A DNA stretch of 23,193 nucleotides. Source: a virus. Both the position numbers and the translations under genes were made by a program. Below, piece after piece: positions 8,136-17,360 of the stretch (the stretch's first letter is position 1; each line of letters begins with the position of its first letter). The notes beneath the pieces were generated by a model. The model saw nothing but the letters and a program-made list of their open reading frames with translations. It was not told where the DNA came from and did no database searches. The DNA is taken from the IMG/VR virus record IMGVR_UViG_3300042503_000445, positions 1 to 23,193 of that record, one strand, 5' to 3'.

Positions 8136-9611
8136 CTAGAGTGCGTCACCTTCTGCCGCCGAGATCGTCAGCAAAGCAGCGGCGATTGACGGATCAATCC
8201 CCACAGGCTTTGGCGCGAGCTTGGAACGGACAGCATCAATAACAACCACTTCCTCGGCGGACAGTTCGCGTCCAGCCTTGATTGTTTCCAGTGTGGCAAG
8301 CAGCGCCTCAGCCTCTACGCCGATCTTTGGCGCAGTGACTTGGCGGATTGCCGTGAGACCAAGGGTTGCAGGGTAGGCAGGGGTCTGGCCACCGGCGGCA
8401 AGGATGCTCACCTCAAAGAGGTTGGCTTCCTTGATCGTGCGGTTGTTGCCATCCCACGCATCCTGAACCTTCTGGAAGCCGAATGACATTCCAGCTGCGG
8501 CGCTCTCGTGCGTCAGCATCGAGATGACCTTGGCTGCGTCTGGATCGGCTGGGTCGAGTTTCGCCTCAACGCGAAGGCCAGTCTCATCCTCAGTCAACTG
8601 AAGGCGACCGCTTGCCGTGGTGGCAAGGGCGCGTGTCTCGTCGTGACCAAAGAGGAAGGCGATGATCTTCTGTCCTGCGGATGCGCGAGCCAGTGAACGC
8701 TTGAAGGCGTTCGGCGCAATGCGCTCCTCGAATGGCAGACCGGCAGAAGGGCTGTTCCAGATAGAGGCGTAGCCAGTGAAAGTTCGCTGACCGTCAGCAC
8801 CAGCCTCAGCAAGTCGGAACTCACCGATTGGTACCGAGCGAGTTTCTTTCTCTTTCATATCAACAATCTCCCTATCTTCAGCTGCGATCAAAGCGTCTGC
8901 CCACGAGAGTACGCGATCAGTCGCTTCTGGGTCAGTTGTTTCCACACCCCAGAGAAAGCCAGCAACGGCACCTGGACCTGGGAAGTCTGGGTTATCCGAA
9001 TCGCTGTTCTGCGGTACGCCTTCCCAGTCGCCACGGTGTCGGCGAATCCAGGCTGCGGTGCGGATCACTTTGTCGGTGTCGGCTCGACCAGCGGCAAGTT
9101 CTCGCGCATCGGCGATGGTCTCAGGCTGCAAGCCTTCGCCGCCGAGACCGTCCTCAACGAATGCCAAGCCTCTGGCTGCTGCATCGCGGATGTAGTTCGG
9201 CACTTCGTACACAGCGCGCTCCTCGTCAGCGATGTACTCCTCTGGCGAGTACGCTTCAAGACCAAGACCGCGTGCCATCTCGCGGACGGCTGGGTCATTG
9301 TCAATCGCGTATTCCAACTCAGTGCCGTACTGCTCTTTCAGCAGGCCGTACTTGTACTCCTTGAATGGGAAGCCGGTGGCGAAGGCACTGCCCTCGAAGT
9401 CGTTCAGGTGTACCTCTTCCACGCCAGCAACCTTGTTCTCTTGCAGCCAGGCGCGCGTCTCTTGGAGGCGGTCAATCTTGCGCGCCGAGACGATGATGAT
9501 CTGCTTGTCGCCTGACATCACCTCTTCGTTGAGCGCATCGATGAGCGGCTGATTCGGCTGCTCGTTCTCAAGGATGAGCGTGCCGTCTAGGTCGACAATG
9601 ATGTAGCTCAC
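8136..9611 (-). CDS. HAD-like phosphatase / linker domain / HK97 prohead protease fusion
   Basis: 491 residues, GTG start (9609-9611) overlapping the portal stop (GTGA), with GGAG 8 bases upstream. Residues 1 to about 125 form a HAD-like domain: IVDLDGT (D7, D9), IVSAR (S42), a lysine around 84-87 and DNDP (D104, D106). Residues about 130-245 are a helical domain (VPNYIRDAAARGLAFVE ... WIRRHRGDWEG ... GPGAVAGFLWG) like linker modules seen fused to phage head proteins. Residues 252-491 are the protease, with family S78/U35 features: GHDETRALA (H323), GMSFGF (S376) and LFEVSIL (E400). The protease cuts the capsid delta domain and itself during maturation. The HAD domain's role here is unknown. 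Confidence 0.88.
   Translation of the reverse strand: MSYIIVDLDGTLILENEQPNQPLIDALNEEVMSGDKQIIIVSARKIDRLQETRAWLQENKVAGVEEVHLNDFEGSAFATGFPFKEYKYGLLKEQYGTELEYAIDNDPAVREMARGLGLEAYSPEEYIADEERAVYEVPNYIRDAAARGLAFVEDGLGGEGLQPETIADARELAAGRADTDKVIRTAAWIRRHRGDWEGVPQNSDSDNPDFPGPGAVAGFLWGVETTDPEATDRVLSWADALIAAEDREIVDMKEKETRSVPIGEFRLAEAGADGQRTFTGYASIWNSPSAGLPFEERIAPNAFKRSLARASAGQKIIAFLFGHDETRALATTASGRLQLTEDETGLRVEAKLDPADPDAAKVISMLTHESAAAGMSFGFQKVQDAWDGNNRTIKEANLFEVSILAAGGQTPAYPATLGLTAIRQVTAPKIGVEAEALLATLETIKAGRELSAEEVVVIDAVRSKLAPKPVGIDPSIAAALLTISAAEGDAL
8868..8872 (-). promoter_or_regulatory. Internal ribosome binding site for a free prohead protease
   Basis: GGGAG on the coding strand lies 9 bases before an in-frame ATG (8856-8858, residue 252 of the fusion), exactly at the boundary between the linker and the protease domain. 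Initiation here would give a 240-residue stand-alone protease (8136-8858). Such internal starts are inferred, not proven. Confidence 0.55.
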
Positions 9612-13220: not shown

Positions 13221-13419
13221 TAGGTACCCAGTCCTTGCCAGCCCAGTAGGGCTTGCCTGCCTTACGGTCTTGGGTGCGGCGGCAGTAGCTGCACTCACCG
13301 CAGGTTGGACTATTCGGCACGATGTCGCGCTTGCACTGGTTGCAATACAGGACACGAGCGCAGGCTCGGCGCTTGCCAAGCCCACGGATGTCTCCAGGCT
13401 TGCACAGGTGTTGGATCAC
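13207..13419 (-). CDS. Small Cys-rich zinc-binding protein
   Basis: 70 residues, GTG start overlapping the stop of the glycosyltransferase gene (GTGA). The product has eight Cys, several in pairs: LYCNQCKRD and PTCGECSYCRRTQDR. Positive residues surround them, and the end is GKPYWAGKDW. The layout suggests one or two zinc-binding knuckles that could bind nucleic acid. No family is recognised. Its closeness to the FmdB-like gene and to the terminase genes suggests a role late in infection or in packaging. Confidence 0.65.
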   Translation of the reverse strand: MIQHLCKPGDIRGLGKRRACARVLYCNQCKRDIVPNSPTCGECSYCRRTQDRKAGKPYWAGKDWVPSAAL

Positions 13420-14621
13420 TTCTTAGCCCTGCGCTGTGCGCGGTTGGCAACTTCTGTCTGTCCAATGCCGAGTCGGATCTTGCCTGACTGGATGGACTTG
13501 AACAGCGGCTCCCACTTCTCCTTGTAGACCTTGTCTGCGTCGTACTCGTCCATCGTTGCGGCTAGTGCGGTGCGGTTGATCTTTCCGCGCTTGGTGTCTG
13601 CATAGTTAGCCAGCAGGGCAAAGTAGATCGCGTCCACATTAGGGATCTTGCTGAACGCCTCGTGGAAGTCTTCCCAGTGCAACTGACCCTTGACGATGTG
13701 ACCGTGGTCACGCACTAGCTCTGGCTGCGCCGTGTGATCAGTGACGATGACTGGCGTGCCTACGGCCTGAGCCTCAATGACTGGGAGACCAAAGCCCTCA
13801 GAGCGTGAGGCTAGGAGCAGCACATCGGCGGAGCGCATTAGGCTTGCCACCGTCTCTGCCGGTACGCCAGCGCGCATCTGGACTGAGTTCACCCAGCGGA
13901 TGCGATCCTCTGGAGCGCCAAGCGCCTTGAGTAGTGGGATCAGGTTGATGCCGTCCATATGACCCCACTTGTCGGTGTGCAGGTAGAGGTAGGCATCCTC
14001 GTGCGTCTGGGCTAGGCGCACCCACGCGGTGAGCATCTCAGGGAACGACTTGCGCTTCCCCTTGTTCATCGCGGTGACGATGGTCAGGTGTGCGCCCTCT
14101 GGTACTCGCAGAGTCTGACGCATCGGCTCTACACCGCTGTGCCAGATTGCGCGGTCAATGGCGTGAGGGATGTAGGTCAGGCGGTCTCGTGGTACTCCAG
14201 CCTCCAACAGCAGCTGCTCGCCGTTCTTGCTCATTGCCACGATGTACTTGTTGCCACCCTTGATGCACCACTCAGCGACGCGGCGTGGCACAGGCGAGTG
14301 ATCCACCGGCACCCAGCAGACGAGCGGCAACTCGTGCCAGCCGTCGGCGACACCAGTCCACACATCGAACAGGGTCAGGCCGAAGCCACCGTCTCGTGCA
14401 GCCAGCGCGATGTTCTCTGGCCCTGAGTCGTTGGCGTACTTCAGCAAACCCTCTGCGTAGATCTTGATGCCGTTCCACTCCATATTCACAGGAGCGCCGT
14501 AGTTCGCAGCCACGCTGAAGTCGTGACCTGCCGCTAGTGCGCGCAGTCCGAGCTGCGCGATCTGCGTGCCGTAGCCGGTCGGTGCCATTGGCGTGTTAGA
14601 GACTGCGACGATCTTTGCCAT
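13416..14621 (-). CDS. GT4-family glycosyltransferase (GT-B fold)
   Basis: 401 residues, ATG 14619-14621 with AGGAGG 5 bases upstream. The N-terminal domain begins KIVAVSNTPMAPTGYGTQIA, with the Gly-rich acceptor-side loop. The C-terminal donor-binding domain has LTIVTAMNKGKRKSF (K-loop), and the diagnostic E-x7-E motif SEGFGLPVIEAQAVGTPVI lies near residue 280. GT4 enzymes move sugars from nucleotide-sugar donors. The acceptor here could be DNA, a virion protein or a host surface polymer; the sequence does not say which. It ends with a basic NRAQRRAKK tail. It lies between the HNH endonuclease and terminase genes, an unusual insertion in a packaging module. Confidence 0.9.
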   Translation of the reverse strand: MAKIVAVSNTPMAPTGYGTQIAQLGLRALAAGHDFSVAANYGAPVNMEWNGIKIYAEGLLKYANDSGPENIALAARDGGFGLTLFDVWTGVADGWHELPLVCWVPVDHSPVPRRVAEWCIKGGNKYIVAMSKNGEQLLLEAGVPRDRLTYIPHAIDRAIWHSGVEPMRQTLRVPEGAHLTIVTAMNKGKRKSFPEMLTAWVRLAQTHEDAYLYLHTDKWGHMDGINLIPLLKALGAPEDRIRWVNSVQMRAGVPAETVASLMRSADVLLLASRSEGFGLPVIEAQAVGTPVIVTDHTAQPELVRDHGHIVKGQLHWEDFHEAFSKIPNVDAIYFALLANYADTKRGKINRTALAATMDEYDADKVYKEKWEPLFKSIQSGKIRLGIGQTEVANRAQRRAKK

Positions 14622-14963: not shown

Positions 14964-15367
14964 GCCTTGGGGAAGTTAGGGAGGCTCAGGTAGGGAGCCA
15001 AGATGCGAGCGAGATGCTCGGTTGCGCGCTCCTCTGCGTCCTCCAGTTGTGGCTCTAGGACAGCCCACGCCAACTTGCCGAGTGACTCCTCCATCGTCTC
15101 GGTCACGCGCGCATATCGAGCAAGCACTAAGTGCAGCAGCTCGTGGGTCAGGATCAGTCGCTGCTTCTCTGGGGTCTGCGTCCAGAAGTCGTGGCTCACG
15201 CGAAGGTCAGCGGTTGGCTGTTGGGCGTGTGCGTCAATGTCTGCCCACGCGTCCACATCGGATGCGGCCTCAACGATGGTGAGTTCCCACGAGTCAACGC
15301 CGAGCAGTACCTGTGCGTCCGCTACCCATCCCCTGAGTGCGGTGAACTTGTCCTGCGCCTTAGCCAT
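14960..15367 (-). CDS. Zinc metallopeptidase-like protein (HExxH)
   Basis: 135 residues from ATG 15365-15367, chosen because AGGAGG precedes it; a longer reading to 15430 would be Ser/Arg-rich and lacks support. HELLH at residues 75-79 (LTHELLHLVLARY) is the zinc and catalytic motif. Upstream strands (DSWELTIVEAAS, TADLRVSHDFW) resemble SprT/ImmA-like small peptidases of phages. A third ligand may lie in ETMEESLGKLAW. The substrate is unknown. The stop overlaps the HNH start. Confidence 0.72.
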   Translation of the reverse strand: MAKAQDKFTALRGWVADAQVLLGVDSWELTIVEAASDVDAWADIDAHAQQPTADLRVSHDFWTQTPEKQRLILTHELLHLVLARYARVTETMEESLGKLAWAVLEPQLEDAEERATEHLARILAPYLSLPNFPKA

Positions 15368-15560
15368 TTGCCCTCCTGTAGTGGTGGAGCAGGAGTGGAG
15401 TCGCACCACTCGTTCCTTGCTGACCGGCAATAGCCGTGATGGTCCTGCAAGCGTCTGCGCTGCCCCAGGTTAGACCCTGCCGATGGGAGGACTCCACCGG
15501 CAGGGCGAGTGACAGCAGCACGCCAAACGGCCGCGCTGTCGCCAACAAAGCGTAGCGCAT
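15360..15560 (-). CDS. Possible small secreted or membrane protein
   Basis: 66-residue frame beginning at an ATG that shares a base with the TGA of the zinc protein gene (TGATG). The product starts MRYALLATARPFGVLLSLAL, a plausible signal or membrane segment, and then SSHRQGLTWGSADACRTI and a short tail ending HHYRRANG. It fills an otherwise empty 192-base gap and overlaps the metallopeptidase start by 8 bases. The tight overlap at both ends supports it. No family is recognised and no clear binding site is seen, so it may be spurious. Confidence 0.45.
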   Translation of the reverse strand: MRYALLATARPFGVLLSLALPVESSHRQGLTWGSADACRTITAIAGQQGTSGATPLLLHHYRRANG

Positions 15561-16009
15561 CACTTTGGATTCCTGAGTGGAAGTGGCGATACAGGTCGGA
15601 GTGGGCAGGTCTGATCCCAACAGGTCGGTGTCTTCTCTTCATCGCCAGCGCAGACACGGCACATCAAGTCAACCGCAGCGGTGTAGCGGTGCAACTTGGC
15701 GATGAGAGAATCATCTGCCTCATCCTCAATGCGTGACTTCACCCAGAAGATGTCAGCGTCGGTGACGAAGGTGCCGCCGTAGTAGCGCTCTCGCGCCCAG
15801 TGAACACTCTTGCCGTATTGCGGCATCAAGTTGAACAGCGCGTTGAGTTTGACTCCGAGCTTCAGCGACCACGCGGCACAAGCCTGTTGGAACTCGCGCT
15901 GCTCGATGGGTAATCCGCGATGGTCACCTGGACTACGCCTCTGCCGAGCGGCGCGAGACGAGAGAACGCGGTTGGACTTAGGTCGATTGCTCGGCTGCGA
16001 GATGTCCAC
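15560..16009 (-). CDS. Hypothetical zinc-binding protein with C-terminal Cys cluster
   Basis: 149 residues from GTG 16007-16009, with GGGAGG about 12 bases upstream. The C-terminus has MCRVCAGDEEK and TCWDQTCPLRPVSPLP, a C-x2-C plus C-x4-C-P-L-x-P cluster that recurs in small phage proteins of unknown role. The middle (SVHWARERYYGG, IFWVKSRIEDEADDSLIAKL) is helical. The first 50 residues overlap the RlpA-like gene by 148 bases and look like a shadow frame, although IEQREFQQACAAWSLKLG reads as real protein. An alternative start is the CTG at 15865, which overlaps the RlpA-like stop as CTGA and would give 101 residues. Confidence 0.6.
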   Translation of the reverse strand: MDISQPSNRPKSNRVLSSRAARQRRSPGDHRGLPIEQREFQQACAAWSLKLGVKLNALFNLMPQYGKSVHWARERYYGGTFVTDADIFWVKSRIEDEADDSLIAKLHRYTAAVDLMCRVCAGDEEKTPTCWDQTCPLRPVSPLPLRNPK

Positions 16010-16353
16010 GGCTTGTTTAGGCCCTCCCTACACGATCCACAATAGTCGCGTACCACAACGATCACGCACTTGGTCGCATCGTCCTTCCGGCAGACGCGCA
16101 GTCTAAACGGTTTGGCTCCCCAGCGCCAGCGCCCTACCGCTGCGTACATCACCAGCTCGCCACCCCTGCCGCCTTGTGCCTTGGACTTATACGGCGAGCA
16201 GGTGTTCTTGTATCCACCGACGCAGTACTTCTCGCCCTTGGCGGAGGTGCTGCCATACCAGGTCGCTACGCCGCTGACCGGTACGCCGCTTAGCGTCAGG
16301 TCTGGTCCAGTGCTGCTTGTGAGCAGCGCCAGAGCCAGCAGTAGCGCTGTCAG
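15862..16353 (-). CDS. Secreted RlpA-like double-psi beta-barrel protein (CTG start)
   Basis: 163-residue frame whose only upstream start candidate is a CTG (16351-16353) overlapping the TGA of the resolvase-like gene. The next in-frame stop upstream is only about 12 codons away, with no ATG, GTG or TTG between. Residues 1-14 are hydrophobic (TALLLALALLTSS), a weak signal peptide without basic residues. The core matches the RlpA/DPBB pattern: GVATWYG at 28-34, VVVRDYC with D103, and RAIDLSPTAFSRLAPLGRG at 121-139 with D124. Six Cys (44, 52, 88, 96, 105, 108) suggest disulfides outside the cell. Such proteins bind or cleave peptidoglycan, so a lysis or wall role is inferred. Confidence 0.72.
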   Translation of the reverse strand: MTALLLALALLTSSTGPDLTLSGVPVSGVATWYGSTSAKGEKYCVGGYKNTCSPYKSKAQGGRGGELVMYAAVGRWRWGAKPFRLRVCRKDDATKCVIVVVRDYCGSCREGLNKPWTSRSRAIDLSPTAFSRLAPLGRGVVQVTIADYPSSSASSNRLVPRGR

Positions 16354-16712
16354 CTGCTGGTGTCCAGTAGGTCGATGAAGTCCTCAAAGTCAAGGACAAT
16401 CATCGTGCGGCGCTTGGTGCCAGGTCCAGGTGCGTCGCCTACGACGAGTGCGCTGATCTGGCTGGAGTTGCCAAGTACGGATCGCAGCCAGCCGTCGTAG
16501 CGCTCTGAGTACGAGCCGTTGCCCACCTTGCACTGGATGGCGATCCAGTCGGACTGCACATCTACCTTGCCGCCGAACTGGCCCACGCGAACGCCGCCGA
16601 TCTTCTCGGCGACCTCACGCTCGAATGAGTTGCCCTTGTTGCGTGCGCGCTTGCCGCGCTTCGCCTTGTCTTTGTTCTGCTCGTCAATGTCTAGGTCGCT
16701 CATCTTGCTCAC
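16350..16712 (-). CDS. Holliday-junction-resolvase-like endonuclease (PD-(D/E)XK)
   Basis: 120 residues, GTG start coupled to the preceding stop (GTGA); an ATG three codons later (16703) is an alternative. After a lysine-rich N-terminus (KDKAKRGKRARNKGNSFE) come the nuclease residues: E31 in FEREVAEKIGG, D51 in GGKVDVQS, and Q60-x-K62 in WIAIQCK. This is the Hjc/RecU-like arrangement, with Q in the usual E position. Such enzymes cut branched DNA before packaging. The end is DFEDFIDLLDTSS. Confidence is good for the fold and moderate for the substrate. Confidence 0.75.
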   Translation of the reverse strand: MSKMSDLDIDEQNKDKAKRGKRARNKGNSFEREVAEKIGGVRVGQFGGKVDVQSDWIAIQCKVGNGSYSERYDGWLRSVLGNSSQISALVVGDAPGPGTKRRTMIVLDFEDFIDLLDTSS

Positions 16713-16999
16713 TTCTGTACCAGCCTTCCTAGCCGTGCGTGTCCGCCATCGGACAGTGTGAACACGGACTGTTGCAGTTCTAGGTGTCCGGCCTTGATCA
16801 AGTCCGCGATGGTTGCTCGGTTGAAGATATGTTCGTTCAGGAAGAACCAGCCCTCTGGCGCGATTGCGTCCGAGTACCGGATGCTCAACTTGGCAAACTG
16901 TCTGCCGATCTTAGGGTCATAGCACCAAGCATCTGCACCCTCTTGCACACATCGAATGCCCTCATCCAGCTCAGGAGTGAGGATCTCGATGTTGCTCAC
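16709..16999 (-). CDS. Hypothetical protein, 96 residues
   Basis: GTG start at 16997-16999 overlaps the stop of the preceding gene (GTGA), giving the N-terminus SNIEILTPELDEGIRC; a GTG three codons earlier is possible. The product has an aromatic patch (GADAWCYDP, APEGWFFLNEHIFN) and a helix (RATIADLIKAGHLEL), then FTLSDGGHARLGRLVQK, which looks like a winged-helix wing and end. I do not recognise a family. It sits between two small proteins and the resolvase-like gene in the accessory block. Confidence 0.65.
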   Translation of the reverse strand: MSNIEILTPELDEGIRCVQEGADAWCYDPKIGRQFAKLSIRYSDAIAPEGWFFLNEHIFNRATIADLIKAGHLELQQSVFTLSDGGHARLGRLVQK

Positions 17000-17187: not shown

Positions 17188-17360
17188 TGCAATGACCTCC
17201 ACATCCAGACCACTGTCGCTGCCGTGGTGAGCAGGAAGATAAACGACGGTACAACACCGATACCACGCTTGATGCTAAGTGGCAGGGATGCGAAGACCAC
17301 CAAGAACAGCGCGGTGTTGATGATGATCAGCGTCACGCCGACATAGGCGAAGGCGCTCAC
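17175..17360 (-). CDS. Small two-helix membrane protein
   Basis: 61 residues from GTG 17358-17360, overlapping the stop of the previous gene (GTGA). Two hydrophobic segments, AYVGVTLIIINTALFLVVFA and SFIFLLTTAATVVWMW, flank a short basic loop (SIKRGIG). The size and topology would fit a class II holin, and it lies about 0.8 kb ahead of the RlpA-like secreted protein gene. However, the tail is not strongly charged and no endolysin is seen beside it. The holin role is speculative. Confidence 0.65.
   Translation of the reverse strand: MSAFAYVGVTLIIINTALFLVVFASLPLSIKRGIGVVPSFIFLLTTAATVVWMWRSLQWQA

Follow-up and report, generated by a model that had tools for sequence, protein, structure and literature searches.

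The closest described counterparts of the gene junction considered here are the -4 (NTGA) overlaps of termination-reinitiation, at which two genes of the same operon and orientation share four bases (Huber 2019 PMC6728339; PMC10666635; PMC12548453). This is the commonest geometry for termination-reinitiation in bacteria (PMC10666635, PMC12548453), and the known overlaps of this kind have the form ATGA or GTGA, and in most groups a Shine-Dalgarno (SD) sequence is typically located within the upstream gene (PMC6728339; PMC10666635; PMC12548453). The phage junction described below shares the overlap and the common orientation with these systems; however, it reads CTGA (ATAA in three relatives), has no clear SD sequence and is followed by a conserved RNA hairpin that begins 16 nucleotides from the start. 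Among phages, gene VII of f1 and the lysis genes of ssRNA phages use AUG or UUG starts. In the work referred to in PMC12548453 and PMC10666635, these are likewise weak sites that are enabled by translation of the preceding gene, and the coat/lysis pair of phage fr overlaps by 34 nt (PMC10666635), as compared with 4 nt here. In regard to the start codon itself, CUG initiates poorly, since neither the wild-type nor a variant tRNA-fMet is efficient on it and the initiation complexes formed on it are unstable (PMC11497404). CTG starts account for 20 of nearly 85,000 annotated genes in a survey cited in PMC11983097, a rarity that is partly due to the fact that gene callers disallow this codon. A likeness is provided by the rep gene of the FIB replicon of F-like plasmids, where a CTG start was proven by N-terminal sequencing, its change to CTC abolishes function, and its use is thought to keep expression low (PMC11983097). 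The FIB rep and the phage gene have in common both the CTG start and a mis-annotation at a downstream GTG, but the former has a good ribosome binding site and no stop coupling was described for it (PMC11983097).

The window, by which we mean the whole 23,193-nucleotide stretch of DNA analysed, comes from a tailed phage with an HK97-type portal, protease and capsid, of which it represents a 23-kb fragment. Nearly all of its likely genes are carried by the minus strand, including the gene of interest, and no tRNA gene was found in it. This gene (15862..16353, minus strand) encodes an RlpA-like double-psi beta-barrel (DPBB) protein of 163 aa when read from a CTG at 16351..16353, which overlaps the TGA (16352-16350) of a PDDEXK/RusA-like nuclease gene upstream (16350..16712, minus strand; GTG start; weak match to PHROG 244, E=0.0015). 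As the nuclease-like gene ends in AGC-TGA, the bases CTGA at 16353-16350 form a 4-nt stop/start overlap between two genes in the same orientation. The DPBB frame is closed upstream by an in-frame TGA (16384..16386, minus strand), and the ten codons between this stop and the CTG (16383-16354) are open. The CTG is followed by a hydrophobic leader (TALLLALALLTSSTG), the GVATWYG motif, the DPBB domain and the stop codon TGA at 15864-15862. It had been stated in an earlier note on this DNA that no ATG, GTG or TTG lies between the upstream stop and the leader, and this is exact, the frame being free of these codons from the TGA at 16386-16384 down to a GTG at 16152 (16150..16152, minus strand). An ORF finder limited to ATG, GTG and TTG hence gives 16152..15862 (96 aa), the truncation which that note had expected of standard callers and by which the leader and the GVATWYG motif are lost. 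Its observation that the CTG overlaps the stop codon in the same manner as GTG or ATG do elsewhere also holds, as the window contains five GTGA junctions of this kind (18162, 16712, 14963, 13419, and 9611) and one ATGA junction (5706). An overlap of this form by itself proves nothing, because a gene terminated by TGA necessarily contains an NTG in the -1 frame, and the evidence must come from related sequences.

Searches of viral contigs yielded about 90 related contigs, whereas tblastn searches with the DPBB or nuclease protein against 50,697 phage records, and a search of genome contigs with the DPBB alignment, detected no relative. The start codon at the homologous position was recorded both for contigs in which the DPBB gene is adjacent to the nuclease gene and for distant ones with other upstream genes. 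In 35 distinct junctions it was CTG in 21, ATG in six, ATA in three, GTG in three and TTG in two, and when the sequences were de-duplicated in another way (33 junctions) the corresponding numbers were 23, 4, 3, 2, and 1. Canonical starts are thus located at this very codon in several lineages, and at least eight start-codon changes are required on a weakly resolved tree of the nuclease. The 4-nt overlap is also retained in distant relatives with different upstream genes (ATGA in L179, L180, and L182; TTGA in L187), in L193, where GTGA at the homologous codon follows a distant nuclease homologue, and in L051, which has kept CTGA although its upstream gene is unrelated. In the three ATA relatives (L024:3088, L043:4360, and L053:4360) the overlap is ATAA with a TAA stop, and no ATG, GTG or TTG is present for about 20 further codons; an AUA start in these relatives would be rarer still than CTG. 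A different arrangement is seen in about 20 relatives (L003, L029, L034, and others) which contain an extra gene between the nuclease and DPBB genes; in these the DPBB gene starts with ATG and its leader has the N-terminal sequence MAQVV or MAEVV. The alignment of relatives, which the earlier note had named as a check, therefore shows CTG, ATG, TTG, GTG or ATA exactly at this codon, and no start conserved elsewhere, which would have spoken against the CTG, was found among them. An odd start of this kind could in itself be a sign of a sequencing error or a pseudogene. However, more than 20 distinct sequences, which come from many metagenomes, have CTG here, the DPBB frames are intact throughout, and an identical DPBB protein with the same CTG is encoded by L002, a contig obtained from another metagenome. 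Error was consequently rejected as an explanation on the basis of these many independent contigs, and we give the alternative as a whole virtually no credence.

The position at which coding begins in the DPBB frame is also indicated by a switch in the pattern of constraint. Upstream of the CTG, variation is highest at the first codon position of the DPBB frame, which corresponds to position 3 of the nuclease frame, whereas downstream of it the peak is at position 3 of the DPBB frame, and a crude dN/dS ratio in this frame is 0.43 after the CTG as compared with 1.13 before it. Based upon these substitution patterns, the leader is coding in the DPBB frame and the codons preceding the CTG are not. 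The latter observation bears upon the suggestion that a -1 frameshift close to the 3' end of the nuclease gene gives rise to a nuclease-DPBB fusion, with no need of a start codon. The DPBB gene does lie in the -1 frame, and in the window the ten codons that precede the CTG contain no stop in this frame. However, the upstream codons are constrained in the nuclease frame only, no slippery heptamer of the form X XXY YYZ is present in any junction with a stop/start overlap, and canonical starts occupy this position in relatives. Further, L049 and L007, which have the nuclease arrangement, contain a stop in the DPBB frame one codon upstream of the start position, which together with the lack of a heptamer excludes a frameshift fusion in them and as a general mechanism for the family. 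A frameshifted fusion, which the earlier note had listed among the outcomes that would speak against its proposal, is accordingly considered extremely improbable for the window as well.

Two other positions for the start were also considered. Translation could begin further downstream, at the GTG at 16152 or at internal GTG codons in relatives, leaving the leader untranslated; this is what ORF finding with ATG, GTG and TTG indicates, and a viral RlpA-like entry (A0A6J5MTZ7), as annotated, is only 87 aa long. However, the leader and the GVATWYG motif evolve like coding sequence, the GTG that relatives have at codon 33 of the frame is missing in the window, L054, and L061, and a start at 16152 would, in the structural model, delete the first strand of the fold. 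On account of the leader constraint and the non-conserved internal GTG, a downstream start was rejected, and its likelihood appears to us to be very slight. Alternatively, another near-cognate codon of the leader could serve as the start, since the CTG codons at 16341, 16338, 16332, and 16326 are all in frame. In the relatives, however, it is only the codon at 16353 that is replaced by ATG, GTG, TTG or ATA, while the leucine codons 5 and 9 of the leader remain CTG, and a start at one of these other codons is thus highly unlikely.

The use of CTG is specific for the DPBB gene, as the NTGA start of the nuclease gene is never CTG. The nuclease gene starts with GTG or ATG in all 64 distinct relatives, and in 63 of these the start is part of an NTGA overlap (46 GTGA, 17 ATGA, and no CTGA). 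Compared with these 0/63 nuclease starts, the excess of CTG at the DPBB gene has a Fisher probability of 2e-13, although the sequences are related and both this and the Mann-Whitney values therefore overstate the significance. The C preceding the TGA is partly accounted for by codon preference, AGC being favored over AGT for serine (120 vs. 20). The gene 3' of the DPBB gene (16009..15560) starts with GTG in 36 and ATG in seven of the relatives, and an odd start for it was rejected, as the conservation of these codons indicates that it is ordinary despite an overlap of 148 nt. This overlap with the DPBB gene (about 148 nt, 16009-15862) is in another frame, and both frames stay open across the family. 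Apparent CTG starts at 17202, 17008, and 15620 in the window were also set aside, since 17187 (GTG), 16999 (GTGA), and 15560 (TGATG) are likelier as true starts, and the CTG codons are probably part of the sequence upstream of these.

Concerning how ribosomes reach the CTG, no clear SD match was found at the DPBB CTG sites. The predicted SD energy at the CTG in the window is -3.0 kcal/mol, as against a background of -3.3, and the mean energies are -4.5 kcal/mol for the CTG sites and -7.7 kcal/mol for the GTG starts of the nuclease gene. Considering the lack of a clear SD sequence, the poor performance of CUG and the fact that reinitiation sites most often have the form of a -4 overlap, coupling would be the likeliest source of ribosomes. 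In the reading that we favor, and regard as likely to be correct, a ribosome terminating the nuclease-like protein at the UGA would slip back by one base and restart with fMet on the overlapping CUG, possibly with help from the hairpin, and the DPBB product would be translated from the CTG at 16353. As the codon is poor and no clear SD sequence is present, expression would be expected to depend upon translation of the upstream gene and to yield little protein. De novo initiation provides another possibility, in which a free 30S subunit binds at the CTG and translation of the nuclease gene only opens the RNA structure. The region around the junction is strongly structured (z -4.2), and RNA unfolding has been described as an alternative model for coupling (PMC12548453). 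The lack of a clear SD sequence, the poor codon and the persistence of 4-nt overlaps behind different upstream genes, however, make this possibility rather unlikely.

The suggestion that the favored reinitiation at the CTG is assisted by RNA structure is based upon a feature that went beyond what the earlier note had seen. Stem-loops within the coding sequence about 15 nt 3' of the start, such as those of E. coli fepA and bamA and the eukaryotic downstream hairpins of Kozak, reportedly activate initiation. In those cases initiation is de novo, and the starts that are helped are AUG codons or lie in a weak context. The predicted hairpin in the DPBB gene (16302..16338, minus strand) lies at a similar distance, extending from +16 to +52 as counted from the C of the CTG, but here it is associated with a near-cognate start within a stop/start overlap. 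It consists of an outer CUGG/CCAG stem and a top GCUGCU/AGCAGC stem, with a folding energy of -20.3 kcal/mol. In comparison with synonymous recodings that have the codon usage of the phage its z-score is -3.71, the strongest +15 structure among the 35 genes of the window, and against a background mean of -0.16 only 0.6% of folding windows are as extreme. The second strongest (z -2.8) is predicted for a small gene at 15360-15560, which starts with the ATG at 15560 in a TGATG overlap.

The presence of a stem-loop about 15 nt 3' of the start is supported by both prediction and comparison. All 22 of the near-cognate junctions folded (19 CTG and 3 ATA) have z-scores of -1.4 or lower relative to synonymous recoding, with a mean of -3.0, whereas the 16 ATG relatives with an inserted gene, which are generally without the hairpin at +16, have a mean of -0.6. 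Canonical starts in the adjacent or distant arrangements give mixed values (mean -1.5), and a +15 structure is also predicted for L062, L072, L179, L182, L191, and L194 (ATG) and L075, L079, and L193 (GTG), which indicates that near-cognate starts are not the only ones to have the hairpin. In the adjacent class the sliding-window minimum is located at +15. Pair counts reveal compensatory changes at alignment columns 84-99 and 82-101, and the covariation score exceeds those of all 500 shuffles and of all slides, although conservation is poor at two middle pairs and the third-base constraint in the leader extends beyond the paired (stem) positions (p=0.34). No Rfam match was obtained in 15800-16800 at E<=1. 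Based upon these sequence comparisons, the hairpin is probably real. From the usual toeprint distance, a hairpin starting at +16 would coincide with the leading edge of a ribosome whose P site is occupied by CUG; it may hold the ribosome there, and it possibly helps initiation in this manner. More tentatively, and with less than even confidence, we suggest that the overlap and the leading-edge hairpin form an element that relaxes start-codon choice, permitting CUG or even AUA to be used without an SD sequence, for one secreted protein only, while neighboring overlaps keep GTG or ATG.

The assignment of the product is based upon a match to PF03330 (38.6 bits vs. a cut-off of 28.8; E=1.3e-9) and the invariance of G28, W32, Y33, D103, D124, L125, and S126 across 63 sequences. 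An AF2 model from a deeper alignment (pLDDT 76) has a helix at residues 2-11, and its Foldseek matches include PA4485 (4avr), the Streptomyces papain inhibitor, loosenin and expansins; it also matches RlpA-like proteins from uncultured phages. With 26% identity to 4avr, the protein is far from those that have been solved. With RlpA-like proteins (PF03330; PA4485, 4avr) it has in common the DPBB, the GVATWYG motif, the invariant Asp in VRDxC, the IDLS motif and a hydrophobic leader, but the lipobox Cys and SPOR domain of canonical RlpA are both missing, and one DPBB is the only Pfam hit in the 163 aa of the protein. The leader (M-TALLLALALLTS; 16317..16353, minus strand) is a probable signal sequence with homologous leaders in relatives, although it contains no Lys or Arg, which is unusual in a signal peptide. 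From its sequence, the product is likely secreted, and it is probably a cell-wall-acting protein. Wall lysis is a possible activity, for which protease inhibition and carbohydrate loosening are the alternatives among DPBB proteins.

A CTG start is thus already known from FIB rep and stop-coupled starts are common, and what appears to be new is their conserved combination with a hairpin: in the open literature, we found no description of a CTG or ATA start within a -4 overlap that is conserved across a phage family together with a hairpin at +16. The interchange of CTG, ATA, TTG, GTG, and ATG at one overlap, when neighboring overlaps are never CTG, constitutes a natural start-codon test, and this family of uncultured aquatic phages provides a clean test case for ribosome restart at a normally disfavored codon. 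Because the junction is short and portable and natural variants of it exist, the effects of coupling and of the hairpin on start-codon choice are directly testable. These results also point to a class of secreted proteins of phages whose genes would be called too short by ORF finders, with loss of the leader. Two other genes of the window may be mentioned. The prohead protease gene (8136-9611) encodes the protease in residues 277-407, while its N-terminal part weakly matches HAD-type phosphatases (Cof/HAD-IIB), which is an uncommon fusion, and a gene for a GT4-type glycosyltransferase (13416-14621) is located between the terminase region and an HNH nuclease gene.
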